Below are positions 47,585-51,212 of a stretch of DNA of 64,000 nt, piece by piece. The notes beneath the pieces were generated by a model that searched no databases, was not told where the DNA came from, and saw nothing but the letters and a program-made list of their open reading frames with translations. The number at the start of each line of letters is the position of its first letter. Within the stretch, counting starts at the first letter, position 1. This stretch comes from Haemophilus haemolyticus (lineage in GTDB: Bacteria; Pseudomonadota; Gammaproteobacteria; Enterobacterales; Pasteurellaceae). The DNA lies in contig NZ_CP031243.1 of the NCBI RefSeq assembly GCF_003352385.1, positions 1,652,501 through 1,716,500 of the forward strand, written 5' to 3'. Made by a program: the position numbers and the translations under genes.

Positions 47585-48712
47585 ATGTCGCAAATCTATA
47601 CTCAGGTGAGAAAGTTAGCGGAACGGTTTATTGAGCCTTACGCCGACGAACTCGATCAAAAAAAAGAATTTCCTGTTCAGGCATTTAAGGAATTAGGTAA
47701 AGCTGGTTGGTTTTCACTTTTAATTCCAAAAGAATACGGCGGAATGGGATTAACCCTAAAAGAACACGCTGAAGTCTGTATGGCGTTAGCTGAAAGTTCA
47801 GCCTCTGCTGGTCTCTGTTACATGATGAGTAACGTTGCAGTGAATTGTTTAAATCTATTCGGCAGCGATCAACTCAAACAAAAAATCTTTTCTGATATTG
47901 TTCAAAATCAAACCTTTGCCGCACTCGCCTATAGTGAATTAGGAACTGGGACTCACTTCTATATTACCGATGCAAACGCACAATTTAATGCTGAACATGC
48001 AGTATTCAATGGCTTAAAATCCATGGTGACATCGGGCAATTATGCCTCTTATTATTTAGCGCTTTTGCCTTCTGAAAATGGCGAAACTATTGATAATTGG
48101 GTGCTTCCACTTGGTACTCAAGGCTTAACTTTTGAAGCCGATAGCTGGAATGGATTAGGTATGCGTAGCAATGTCTCTTGCTTTATGCGAATGACCGATA
48201 TGCCATTAGATCGTGACTGGCGCATTGGCGAAGTTGGCGCAGGCGCAGAACAAGTATTTGGTGGCATTGCACCAGCCTTTATTTGTGGCTTGGCTGCTGT
48301 CTATAGCGGCGTATGCAAAGCCGTGCTTACTGAGGCAATTAAACATTCAACACACCGTAAATACACATCTGGCACTGCATTAGCTGAAATCGAAACCGTG
48401 CAAATTCATTTAGCTAAAATCTATGCAAATACAAACGCTGCTGTATGTGCTACGAGAGATGCTGCTCGTGCAGCCACAGAAGGTGATACAGATGCATTGG
48501 ATAAATTATTAGCCGCCCGTATTCTTGCGAGCGAAAATGCTATTACCCTTGCACAAATTGGTATGCGTATTGGCGGTGGTAAGGCCTATAACAAAATGGG
48601 GCCAATGGAACGCTATTTACGCGATGCATTAGCAAGTCAAGTGATGGCGCCAAGTGTCGATGTGCTAAATATTTGGTTAGGTAAAGCCATTACAGGTCAA
48701 CAAATTCCATAA
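47585..48712 (+). CDS. Acyl-CoA-dehydrogenase-fold flavoprotein, probable monooxygenase-type
   Basis: A 375-residue protein with the full acyl-CoA dehydrogenase fold: N-terminal helices with LIPKEYGGMGLTLKEHAEVCMALAESSASAGLC (about 42-75), a middle beta domain (SELGTGTHFYITDANAQF), and a C-terminal bundle (QIGMRIGGGKAYNKMGPMERYLRDA). At the place where dehydrogenases carry the catalytic glutamate (the YEGT region) it reads VMAPSVDVLNIW, with no Glu. That points away from fatty-acid oxidation and towards the flavin monooxygenases of this fold (DszC/SfnB type). AAGGA precedes the ATG. It is first of four tightly spaced genes; substrate unknown. Confidence 0.75.
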   Translation: MSQIYTQVRKLAERFIEPYADELDQKKEFPVQAFKELGKAGWFSLLIPKEYGGMGLTLKEHAEVCMALAESSASAGLCYMMSNVAVNCLNLFGSDQLKQKIFSDIVQNQTFAALAYSELGTGTHFYITDANAQFNAEHAVFNGLKSMVTSGNYASYYLALLPSENGETIDNWVLPLGTQGLTFEADSWNGLGMRSNVSCFMRMTDMPLDRDWRIGEVGAGAEQVFGGIAPAFICGLAAVYSGVCKAVLTEAIKHSTHRKYTSGTALAEIETVQIHLAKIYANTNAAVCATRDAARAATEGDTDALDKLLAARILASENAITLAQIGMRIGGGKAYNKMGPMERYLRDALASQVMAPSVDVLNIWLGKAITGQQIP

Positions 48713-48725
48713 AGTGCGGTGAAAA

Positions 48726-49532
48726 ATGAGTGAGAAATTAAAAATTGGGGCGGTCATCTACGCCCCACAAGTGACAGTGATTTGGGGAATTATTGCAGAC
48801 TTTTTCGAAAAAGAAGGCTTCCCTATTGAACCCGTGTATTTCAAAGACTACAAAGGGCAAGTTGATGCGTTACTCAATACTGAAATTGATGTAGCGTGGA
48901 ACTCTCCCCTAGCTTGGTTAGACGGTTACTTGCGGAGTGGTGGAAAAACCTTAAATGGTGCCATGCGTGATACCGACCAAGATCGTCAAAGCTATTTAGT
49001 TGTTAATGATCCAACGATCCAATCCATTGAAGATTTAAAAAATAAAACTATTGCTTTTGGTGCAATTGATTCCCCACAAGCGCGGTTAATTCCAATCGAG
49101 TTTTTACATCAACATGGCCTGGAATTTGGTCAAGATTATGTAGAAAAACGCTTTGATGTGGGTGTTGGTTTACACGGCGATCATGTAGGCGGTGAATTAG
49201 ATGCAGCAAATGCATTAAAAGATCGCCAAGTCGCGGCAACATGGATGTTAGATTTCAACTTTGAACGTTGGACAAAAGATGGCACACTCGATCCAGCAAC
49301 AGTTCGAGTACTTGCAAAAACACCATCATTTGACCATTGTATTTTTAGTGGGCGCGTGGGATTAGATGAAACCAAATTCAATGCATTCACCGAAACCTTG
49401 TTCAAAATGGATTACAACAATCCAGAACATAAAGAAATGATGGATTTGGAAGGATTAAAACGTTGGGTTGCGGGCAGAACAAAAGGTTTTGCTCAATTAC
49501 AAGCTGCCAATGAATATTTAAAATTCTTTTAA
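48726..49532 (+). CDS. Cytoplasmic periplasmic-binding-protein-like protein (PhnD-like)
   Basis: A 268-residue protein resembling PhnD/ThiY-type solute-binding proteins: IGAVIYAPQVTVIWGIIADFFEKEG, DVAWNSPLAWLDGY near residue 57, SYLVVNDPTIQSIEDLKNKTIAFGAIDSPQARLIP near 88. It has no signal peptide or lipobox and no adjacent ABC permease or ATPase, so it probably acts in the cytoplasm as a ligand-binding protein or enzyme. A GLHGDHVGGE segment near 148 supplies two histidines and acidic residues. It starts 13 bases after the flavoprotein gene, behind an uptake signal. Confidence 0.72.
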   Translation: MSEKLKIGAVIYAPQVTVIWGIIADFFEKEGFPIEPVYFKDYKGQVDALLNTEIDVAWNSPLAWLDGYLRSGGKTLNGAMRDTDQDRQSYLVVNDPTIQSIEDLKNKTIAFGAIDSPQARLIPIEFLHQHGLEFGQDYVEKRFDVGVGLHGDHVGGELDAANALKDRQVAATWMLDFNFERWTKDGTLDPATVRVLAKTPSFDHCIFSGRVGLDETKFNAFTETLFKMDYNNPEHKEMMDLEGLKRWVAGRTKGFAQLQAANEYLKFF

Positions 49533-49544
49533 GATCAATATGTC

Positions 49545-49573
49545 ATGATGGGCGTGTAATAAACGCCCATCAT
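49545..49573 (+). other. Perfect hairpin between the PhnD-like and MetE-like genes
   Basis: ATGATGGGCGT (49545-49555) and ACGCCCATCAT (49563-49573) form an 11-base stem with a GTAATAA loop, 12 bases before the next start. No U run follows, so it is more likely to block decay or modulate translation than to terminate. Confidence 0.7.
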
Positions 49574-49585
49574 TGTGGATTTTCT

Positions 49586-50755
49586 ATGAAACCTTTCACT
49601 ACTTCCCTTTTAGGCTCAATGCCTCGTAGCCAAGTACTTTTGATGGCGCGTAAAAAGCACACACTAGGCAAAATAACCACAGCAGAGCTTGAGCAAATCG
49701 TTGTTCAAGAAACGAAACAAATTGTCGAACTTCAACAACGAACTGGCATTGATATCATCACTAGCGGTGAATTACTTCGCGACAATTACCTTTCATTTAT
49801 TGCACAAAAAATTCAAGGCGCGACCTTAATGAGCATGAGTGAAATGCTCGATCACATTAAAGAAAAGCAAATTTTTGAGTCAATGCTAGAAACCTTGGAT
49901 GTTCCCGCACTTTCCATAAAAAATGCTATTTGCGTGGGAAAAATCAGCTACAAACAATCTTTAGTAGCAGATGAAATGCTACTACTAAAAAATCTAATCA
50001 AGCAACCAATTAAAGCAACCTTGCCAGGGCCTTACTTAATGGCTCGCTCCATGTGGCTTTCGCCTGTGTCAGGGCAACATTATTCATCAAAAGAAGAAAT
50101 GGCAAAAGATGTTGTTGCTATCTTAAAGCAAGAAATTGATCATTTGTGTGAGCTAGGCGTAAACGTAGTTCAATTTGATGAGCCTGTTTTGACAGAAGTT
50201 ATTTTTAGCCATCATCAAACACGTTCATTTATGTGTGCGGCGTTAAGCGAAAAACAAGATTTTGCTGCGGAACTACAATTTGCAAAAAGTTTAATTACTC
50301 AAATCTTTGAGTATGCAAGAAATAAAAATATCAAAACCGCACTACATGTATGTCGTGGCAACTGGAGCAAAGATGAAAGTGTATTATTGCGCGGGCCTTA
50401 TACATCATTAGTGGATTTATTTGAATCGGCATTACCTGATATTTTAATGCTCGAATTTTCTACGCCAAGAGCGGGAGAATTAAGTTCGTTATTAGAAAGT
50501 AAAATCTTAAGACAAAAATGTATTTTAGGCTTAGGCGTCATCAATCCTCGTTCTGATGAAGTGGAAAGCGTAGAGCAGATTGTTCAACGAGCAGAAAAAG
50601 CCTTAAATTACCTTCCACCAGAGCAAATTTGGCTAAATCCAGATTGTGGATTTGCCACTTTTTCTAACCGCCCTTTAAATGGTTTTGACATTATTGAAGC
50701 CAAACTTAAGGTATTAAATGAGGCAAAATCAATATTGAGAGAACGTTATGTATAA
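49586..50755 (+). CDS. Stand-alone MetE catalytic-domain protein (core-MetE, methionine synthase-like)
   Basis: A 389-residue TIM barrel matching only the C-terminal half of MetE. TTSLLGSMPRSQ is the N-terminal signature, and GVNVVQFDEPVLTEV near 190 is conserved. The zinc ligands are all present: His and Cys in ALHVCRGNW near 253, Glu in LMLEFSTPRAGE near 288, Cys in WLNPDCGFATF near 350. The domain that binds methyl-tetrahydrofolate polyglutamate in MetE is absent. Core-MetE proteins described in other organisms use folate-independent methyl donors, so it may transfer methyl to homocysteine or another thiol. The donor is unknown, and the next gene overlaps it by eight bases. Confidence 0.8.
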   Translation: MKPFTTSLLGSMPRSQVLLMARKKHTLGKITTAELEQIVVQETKQIVELQQRTGIDIITSGELLRDNYLSFIAQKIQGATLMSMSEMLDHIKEKQIFESMLETLDVPALSIKNAICVGKISYKQSLVADEMLLLKNLIKQPIKATLPGPYLMARSMWLSPVSGQHYSSKEEMAKDVVAILKQEIDHLCELGVNVVQFDEPVLTEVIFSHHQTRSFMCAALSEKQDFAAELQFAKSLITQIFEYARNKNIKTALHVCRGNWSKDESVLLRGPYTSLVDLFESALPDILMLEFSTPRAGELSSLLESKILRQKCILGLGVINPRSDEVESVEQIVQRAEKALNYLPPEQIWLNPDCGFATFSNRPLNGFDIIEAKLKVLNEAKSILRERYV

Positions 50756-51212
50756 CGTACCTGAAAGTGAATGTTTTACCGCTAAATATCGAGCCGTATT
50801 ACGCGGAGAAGAAATTAAATTATTCACCCCGAATGACAGCATTTCGCTCTATTCACAAGTCAATTTTGATAACCAATCGTTACAAAAAAGTGCGGTAGAT
50901 TATTTTGCTGTTTCTATTTTAGGTGGCATTTTGAGCAGTGTAAAAGCACATTTTGCTCAACAACGTGCCGATATTGTAGAAATGGAAGGAAAAATTTGGC
51001 TCAACCTCGACAATCCTTTAACCTTACTGGGCGTTCGCGGCTATAGTGAGCAACCTGTCATTAATGACGGAAAAATTAAAATTTTTATTTCATCAGATTT
51101 AACCGATGACATCTTCACACAACTCACGCAAAACTCATTAAGCTGTTGTTTTATTTACAACACGATAACCAAAGCCTTTCCTTTAAATATAGAATTTGAG
51201 CAAGTGCTTTGA
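50748..51212 (+). CDS. OsmC-like protein with a single candidate cysteine
   Basis: A 154-residue protein resembling the OsmC/Ohr fold: beta-rich N-terminus, central helix SAVDYFAVSILGGILSSVKAHF (about 45-66), and a second helix containing SCCFIYNTI near 135, similar to the CPxxNT block of the family. The first catalytic cysteine expected in the central helix is missing (Ile/Leu there), so a standard peroxidase cycle is unlikely. The ATG overlaps the MetE-like stop (ATGTATAA), indicating coupled translation and probably a shared pathway, perhaps thiol or sulfur handling. Confidence 0.65.
   Translation: MYNVPESECFTAKYRAVLRGEEIKLFTPNDSISLYSQVNFDNQSLQKSAVDYFAVSILGGILSSVKAHFAQQRADIVEMEGKIWLNLDNPLTLLGVRGYSEQPVINDGKIKIFISSDLTDDIFTQLTQNSLSCCFIYNTITKAFPLNIEFEQVL

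Follow-up and report, generated by a model that had tools for sequence, protein, structure and literature searches.

The window analysed here is the whole 64-kb stretch from position 1652501 to position 1716500 of Haemophilus haemolyticus (genome G000, contig C1; 1,973,061 bases in the genome). It contains four consecutive open reading frames (ORFs) on the + strand, which encode: (i) a flavoprotein of acyl-CoA dehydrogenase fold (ACAD) lacking the catalytic glutamate, first gene of the module (47585..48712, 375 amino acids (aa), from ORF and Pfam); (ii) a cytoplasmic PhnD-like protein of substrate-binding-protein fold (SBP), the constant partner of ACAD (48726..49532, 268 aa, Pfam PF12974, Phosphonate-bd); (iii) a core MetE, i.e., the zinc methyltransferase domain alone (49586..50755, 389 aa, PF01717, Meth_synt_2); (iv) an OsmC-fold protein without generally conserved cysteine (50748..51212, 154 aa, PF02566 and structural model). 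A preliminary description of this DNA had noted the same strand, two gaps (13 and 53 nt) and one overlap of 8 nt, and all of these are confirmed. It had also proposed a sulfur or methyl-transfer pathway: the observation stands, while this interpretation is partly supported. The four genes form an uncharacterised and widely conserved module, more than a curiosity of a single genome.

The conservation of the module was followed by scanning species genomes with the SBP (initial alignment of 25 sequences). The best 80 of 253 matches were kept as loci, in which close relatives and congeners are over-represented, and these loci also supplied the hidden Markov models with which the genes were counted. 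Loci with at least 3 kb on each side (63 of the 80) were considered as informative, and the 17 others were excluded from the count. The four genes are together in 62 of the 63 informative loci; co-occurrence across genomes, which had been set beforehand as the refutation test, is thus observed. The order is ACAD-SBP-MetE-OsmC in 43 loci, OsmC-SBP-MetE-ACAD in 6, OsmC-ACAD-SBP-MetE in 5 and ACAD-OsmC-SBP-MetE in 2; ACAD is present in two or three copies in 3 loci, and there are three single variants and one exception (L091, in which ACAD is on the strand opposite to SBP). Of the excluded loci, 12 are complete and 5 incomplete (L036, L038, L056, L071 and L080), four of the latter ending near the missing side. 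The gene order is shuffled but the company is constant, which argues for a functional unit rather than for an inherited order. Between the four proteins, the correlations of pairwise distances are 0.66-0.85 (shared ancestry uncorrected). That the four genes are mere neighbours with unrelated jobs is barely credible: the 62 loci, with their several phyla and orders, contradict it unless the sampled loci are grossly unrepresentative. For such a view it can be said that the host genome has a full MetE, MetH and MTHFR, so that none of the four genes looks essential, and that the SBP is missing from 3 of the 8 genomes listed for the genus.

The carriers belong to Bacillota, Pseudomonadota, Campylobacterota, Synergistota, Actinomycetota, Planctomycetota, Verrucomicrobiota, Armatimonadota, Acidobacteriota and Nitrospinota. 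Within Pasteurellaceae, 5 of the 8 genomes listed for the genus (own genome included) have an SBP relative at 98-99% identity, as has one other of the 121 genomes searched; 8 further genomes have weak matches only (23-27% identity). In a quick tree of ACAD, SBP and MetE (64 rows), Haemophilus is included in a group of 15 rows (support 97) together with Gemella, Veillonella, Parvimonas, Oribacterium, a Tissierellia strain and Campylobacter; the other Pseudomonadota row lies apart. This placement suggests, but does not prove, that the gene set may have been transferred laterally among mucosal bacteria.

The ACAD lacks the dehydrogenase glutamate, as previously noticed. In PDB alignments, Ala is found both at the position used by medium- and short-chain acyl-CoA dehydrogenases (A355) and at that used by isovaleryl-CoA dehydrogenase (A231), which we take to be the catalytic-Glu positions. 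The best NCBIfam match is Rv1679_FadE16 (210 bits, cut-off 600); the desulfinase model NF042439 is matched as well (104 bits, cut-off 600), and desulfinases of this type perform redox-neutral chemistry. Electron transfer flavoprotein (ETF, PF01012) was searched for in a background set of 39 carriers, made up of G000 plus the genomes to which 38 selected loci belong: it is present in 18 of them, and no match is found in the host and 20 others. The protein thus differs from acyl-CoA dehydrogenases proper by its own missing glutamate and by the lack of an ETF match in its host. Many carriers, e.g., of the genera Finegoldia, Anaerococcus, Parvimonas and Veillonella, are also presumably strict anaerobes. 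The lack of ETF matches and the presumed anaerobic carriers weaken the «oxidative» release of a methyl or thiol group proposed earlier, and the reaction may equally well, or better, be redox-neutral. Tandem ACAD genes, two or three copies 5' of the SBP, are observed in L028 (7562-9984), L046 (6575-9982), L082 (7322-9934) and L084 (7303-9934), the organisms being Gemella sanguinis, Finegoldia and Aedoeadaptatus. They may reflect several substrates or a mixed complex.

The SBP is modelled with a high predicted local distance difference test score (pLDDT 93.6). Its structural matches are PhnD, PtxB and HtxB, i.e., the phosphate/phosphonate-binding fold; those below rank 30, mostly transferrins and lactoferrins, were discarded as reflecting the common fold only. 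The absence of an export signal, already noted from the letters, is confirmed: the first strand of the fold starts from residue 5, and 24 aligned relatives begin at nearly the same point, give or take a few residues. The motifs WNSPLA, DSPQA, GDHxGGE and DHC are conserved. This unusually strong conservation makes the SBP look more like an enzyme than like a transport receptor. Compared with the PhnD, PtxB and HtxB receptors, it has no export signal, its cluster has no ABC transporter genes (Pfam) and its conservation is beyond that expected for a transport receptor. A Parvimonas relative also matches NMT1/THI5, a family of the same fold which includes an enzyme. The NCBIfam model for Rv1680 gives 189 bits (cut-off 400).

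A MetE core without its folate domain is indeed present: PF01717 is matched, and PF08267 only by a sub-threshold match of 64 residues. The zinc residues (H254, C256, E290 and C354) and the homocysteine-site residues (S11, E62 and D198) are kept in at least 95% of 69 sequences, from which those below a score or length limit were omitted. The residues were matched by eye, motif by motif, to the E. coli positions as given in the available part of PMC7857596. Of the NCBIfam methionine synthase models matched by the protein, none gives a score above its cut-off. In Companilactobacillus versmoldensis (L069, 10820-12005) the MetE gene is split in two frames, i.e., a broken gene or an assembly error.

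Stand-alone MetE domains have precedents. Core methionine synthases MesA to MesD are described in the accessible text of PMC7857596, and the core MetE is also treated in that of PMC7005905. Like them, the MetE of the window is a catalytic domain standing alone, in which the residues for zinc and the homocysteine site are conserved. It differs by its company, since neither MesX nor a corrinoid protein is found by Pfam among the four genes, the partners being of ACAD, PhnD and OsmC fold, and by its occurrence in genera taken here to be strict anaerobes. Pfam gave no DUF1852 (MesX) match in the four genes or in two neighbouring ones, and a wider search including the own genome was likewise empty, its positive controls being also unmatched.

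The fourth protein matches PF02566 with 27.2 bits, i.e., just under the cut-off of 27.5. Its model (pLDDT 81.6) nevertheless has the OsmC fold: 48 of the top 50 PDB rows are named OsmC/Ohr-type and the other two are nameless, with template modelling (TM) scores of 0.43-0.61 to the query. The label «one-cysteine OsmC-like» was thus right for the fold and wrong for the cysteine, the protein having C9, C133 and C134. No cysteine column is general in 60 sequences (that of the window included); the commonest is column 127, with Cys in 32 of the 60 and Thr in the window protein. The conserved residues are R15, D41, E80, P90, V96 and G98. OsmC/Ohr peroxiredoxins have two conserved catalytic cysteines: the fold is common to both families, whereas a general cysteine is absent from that of the window. 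Two shortened copies of 99 aa, P0160 (in 38 contigs) and P0155, have a frameshifted look, and this last gene appears to be decaying in places.

Two other elements are located at the junctions. A terminator-like hairpin (49545..49573, + strand), with a perfect 11-bp stem followed by a T-rich stretch, lies in the SBP/MetE gap, and the same folding is found in 5 of 5 other Haemophilus loci. Hairpins with an energy z-score of −3 or lower (best 50-base window) occur in 21 of 23 SBP-MetE gaps and 10 of 18 ACAD-SBP gaps; mid-operon hairpins are thus common and not specific. In Bacillales, a hairpin with the arms AGAGAAG...CTTCTCT is found once per locus, in the SBP-MetE gap, in 11 of 17 loci (e.g., L048 at 10898 and L063 at 4476); a common arm sequence is more than we would expect of a plain terminator. 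At the ACAD/SBP junction lies a motif (48712..48720, + strand) which we assume to be the Haemophilus-type DNA uptake core sequence. It has a second copy at 50888 and 53 copies in the 64 kb.

The chromosomal neighbours are less informative. The genes trxA and metB, mentioned earlier as lying next door, are there in 3 of 5 Haemophilus loci and replaced by other downstream genes in 2, so this vicinity is not general. The neighbours (trxA, ldhA-like, metB) were considered as a functional clue and rejected, being unconserved across the 5 loci. The upstream genes of H. parainfluenzae (L018) are unlike those of the other four Haemophilus loci (L019, L020, L021 and L030), and its downstream genes are common with L020 only; the set seems to occupy more than one chromosomal place in the genus. 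A gene of the Haemophilus trxA sequence cluster is also found downstream of the set in Gemella bergeri (L024).

In the flanks of the 80 loci, where most genes are unannotated, no fifth family has a fixed place. Broad families recur within 10 kb of the set (e.g., ABC-type ATPases, 15 loci), and a single NAD-epimerase-like gene is upstream of it in Cohnella (L060). NhaC-like and MmuP/MmuM genes flank the set in lactobacilli. Upstream of it, two Companilactobacillus loci have a homocysteine S-methyltransferase (MmuM, 409 and 419 bits, cut-off 215) and, in the same stretches, a gene like that of S-methylmethionine permease (MmuP-like, 656 and 662 bits, below the cut-off of 716). On another contig, Gemella bergeri carries a further ACAD-SBP pair (L080, 276-3762), which lacks MetE and has an NhaC-type transporter after it; in three Companilactobacillus loci, the full set is preceded by a transporter belonging to this cluster.

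The relation between ACAD and SBP is best seen in Actinomycetota, in which 14 of 396 genomes have an SBP at E 1e-25 or better. ACAD adjoins it in 14 of 14 loci and a core MetE is beside the pair in 2 of 14 (1.5-kb flanks), thus ACAD and SBP are the constant pair. NCBIfam has families for the pair and for a radical SAM protein, i.e., Rv1679, Rv1680 and Rv1681 (NF049984, NF049985 and NF049973). The Rv1679-Rv1680-Rv1681 set resembles the window in that its ACAD and SBP, which belong to the two families in question, are neighbours; it differs by its third gene, a radical SAM protein, in the place of which the window has a MetE core and OsmC. No publication on the function of this set was found among those listed, as judged by titles, beginnings of abstracts and term counts.

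Larger stretches were inspected around 11 of these 14 loci. The phosphorylase of methylthioadenosine (MTA), i.e., MTAP, is near the pair in 6 of the 11, in about four arrangements: in G470 it adjoins the pair and is divergent from it, in G498 it lies on the same strand 4.5 kb upstream, in G421 the distance is 11.6 kb, and in G395, G438 and G524, which are mutually related (SBP 78-82% identical), it is 2.7-4.7 kb. Chance would give about 0.09 cases, as calculated from span lengths entered by hand. The curated MTAP cut-offs are reached by 5 of the 6 proteins, that of G498 having 129 bits for a cut-off of 275. GalE-like epimerase, GT2 and DUF2064 genes are also found in the neighbourhoods of G470 and G421. 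The stretch of G498 unites MTAP-like, methyltransferase, radical SAM, GT2, DUF2064-like, ACAD, SBP, core MetE and OsmC genes. In Miltoncostaea oceani, the only plasmid record with the pair (L098, 521-14844), ACAD-SBP is accompanied by two radical SAM genes, DoxX, AhpD-like, DUF2064 and a GT2 with a long N-terminal part; selB-selA-selD are in the same stretch on the opposite strand. The sulfur or methyl part of the earlier proposal is supported by the methylthio link through MTAP in these six loci and by the MmuM and MmuP-like genes of the two Companilactobacillus loci.

The epimerase, GT2 and DUF2064 genes recall the pathway of methylthioxylose (MTX), for which the M. tuberculosis region presumably offers Rv0535, Rv0536 and Rv0540 as counterparts. 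MtxS (Rv0539) and MtxT (Rv0541c) are given as methylthioxylose genes of M. tuberculosis in the accessible text of PMC8780516, and the MTX of mycobacterial lipoarabinomannan is also treated in passages of PMC8081860 and PMC10503756. The likeness is that MTX-type genes are beside ACAD-SBP in G470 and 11.6 kb away in G421. The difference is that the 80 window-type loci have MetE and OsmC, and neither MTAP nor relatives of the G470/G498 epimerase, GT2 and DUF2064.

Some of these neighbours can be read otherwise, i.e., as handling organo-arsenic or organo-selenium compounds (5-deoxy-5-arsinoyl or seleno sugars), the MetE core demethylating the hetero-atom. The DUF2064 and GT2 relatives match models named «arsenosugar biosynthesis glycosyltransferase», the Miltoncostaea stretch has its selB-selA-selD, G498 has an ArsM/UbiE-like methyltransferase, a selenium-type LysR and a radical SAM gene, and the SBP matches the arsenate- and arsenite-binding ArrX and AioX folds. 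However, all the NCBIfam matches in question are below curated cut-offs, the ArrX/AioX match is common to the whole PhnD fold group, and there is no arsenic or selenium gene among the annotated flanks of window-type loci, in which most flanking genes are unannotated. This explanation is thus improbable.

The neighbour genes of Actinomycetota suggest instead a substrate made from MTA, i.e., a 5-methylthio-pentose phosphate, which would suit a cytoplasmic phosphate-binding fold. The reading that we prefer, and hold with less than even confidence, is that ACAD and SBP process an MTA-derived thio-pentose while the core MetE moves a methyl or alkyl group on homocysteine, i.e., a salvage independent of folate and cobalamin. 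ACAD and the cytoplasmic SBP would work jointly on a 5-thio-pentose, a small and probably phosphorylated compound coming from the use of S-adenosylmethionine; methylthioribose or a close analogue, product of MTA cleavage, is the candidate. The flavoprotein step would be redox-neutral (oxidise, eliminate or rearrange, reduce), which is plausible since there is neither a catalytic base nor ETF. The zinc core MetE would move the methyl (or S-alkyl) between the thio-pentose compound and homocysteine, the outcome would be methionine (or homocysteine) salvage with neither folate nor cobalamin, and the OsmC-fold protein would be a binding or assembly partner. We infer, beyond gene linkage, that the window-type set works on the same kind of substrate, and likewise the direction of transfer and the order of the steps.

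The metabolic background of the 39 carriers bears on the role of the core MetE. The MetE folate domain is found in 19 of them and strong MetH matches in 14, a fifteenth (G149) being partial and just over the cut-off. Neither the folate domain nor a full-strength MetH is found in 16 carriers (G149 counted), 11 of which also lack MTHFR, so that a folate-borne methyl is unlikely in these 11. On this genomic basis, a sizeable share of the carriers would have no candidate methionine synthase of the MetE/MetH types other than the core MetE. MtnA, which belongs to the classical salvage, passes its cut-off in 9 genomes, stays below it in 5 and has no match in 25, including the window genome; this counts in favour of the salvage preferred here.

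These data would also suit another reading, in which the module may function as core methionine synthases do, the methyl coming from a supply of its own. It would then be a folate-independent methionine synthase of a fifth kind, in which ACAD and SBP, together with the OsmC-fold protein, feed the methyl of a common metabolite to the core MetE in the manner of MesX, with no tie to MTA. The intact MetE site and the 16 carriers without folate domain or full-strength MetH, 11 of them also without MTHFR, favour it, although the set is common in the genera presumed to be strict anaerobes. In the part of PMC7857596 available, MesD works with the dedicated and uncharacterised partner MesX (DUF1852), which gives a precedent, and oxygen is needed. 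Methionine-type regulation was not found at the operon, and ACAD-SBP is without adjacent MetE in 12 of the 14 Actinomycetota loci, MTAP being often nearby. This possibility is thus doubtful.

LuxS is found in 19 of the 39 carriers and S-adenosylhomocysteine (SAH) hydrolase in 8, with both in one genome and neither in 13; hence 26 carriers, three Haemophilus genomes included, have LuxS or SAH hydrolase. The 13 others invite a reading in the cleaving direction, in which ACAD and SBP would act on the ribosyl part, and MetE hold the homocysteine part, of S-ribosylhomocysteine or an S-alkyl-homocysteine, a redox-neutral elimination freeing homocysteine as an alternative to LuxS or SAH hydrolase. 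The lack of ETF in 21 of the 39 is as expected if no electrons leave, and the ACAD relatives include the desulfinase model NF042439. The 26 carriers provided with one of the two enzymes speak against it, and lead to the rejection of their replacement as the sole role; moreover, the MTAP of Actinomycetota points to MTA and not to SAH. The cleaving direction is therefore unlikely.

The salvage from an MTA-derived thio-pentose has, for its part, several points against it. (i) The MTA link is drawn from Actinomycetota, in which most of the pairs are without MetE; no MTAP is found in the inspected stretches of 5 of the 11 loci (G313, G550, G460, G363 and G371), and the MTAP question was posed after the first two cases had already been seen. 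(ii) In the 80 window-type loci there is no MTAP-like ORF (0 of 80) and no relative, at E 1e-12, of the GT2, DUF2064, epimerase and radical SAM genes of G470 and G498. (iii) L080 is an ACAD-SBP pair whose downstream 10 kb have neither MetE nor OsmC. (iv) A thioether is a poor methyl donor unless activated, and no activating step is evident in the proposal. (v) Homocysteine as the acceptor is weakened: 7 of the 39 carriers have no clear source of it, i.e., neither LuxS nor SAH hydrolase and only a weak partial match to PF01053. This family is over its Pfam cut-off in 39 of 39 genomes, the best match being partial and of at most 46 bits in 8, which we read as other aminotransferase-like proteins. 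(vi) No methionine-type riboswitch or T-box is found at the operon (Rfam, gathering thresholds, 21 loci), and MetJ-like boxes are absent near 47.5 kb, with 6 in the window for an expected mean of 10.8. The Rfam matches of the 21 loci are a c-di-GMP-I site and a T-box kilobases off, tRNAs, glmS and a small RNA; with E up to 1, the window gives a single match, below the family cut-off. The earlier statement that MetE passes a methyl to a thiol acceptor thus stands as to the retained residues for zinc and a homocysteine-like thiol, the transfer to homocysteine itself being unproven.

Taken together with the comparisons above, the module fails at least one tested defining feature of each of MesD, full MetE, acyl-CoA dehydrogenases, PhnD receptors and OsmC peroxidases. 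It had been said not to be a named system, and no publication on the four-gene set was found among those listed, in a search by titles, beginnings of abstracts and term counts which lay mostly outside subscription journals. The available parts of two papers on marine methionine synthases (PMC12478193 and PMC12366255) contain no such gene set.

We suggest tentatively, and with reserve, that human mucosal and soil bacteria of several phyla may possess an undescribed salvage of methylthio-sugars which uses neither folate, cobalamin nor oxygen, and which Haemophilus would have acquired from bacteria of the mouth or airway. Some human mucosal carriers, several of which we presume to be strict anaerobes, have no match for the MetE folate domain, MetH and MTHFR, and the set perhaps provides their only MetE-type enzyme. 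If it is true that the substrate is an MTA-derived sugar, a task would also be suggested for the unexplained Rv1679-Rv1681 genes of Actinomycetota.

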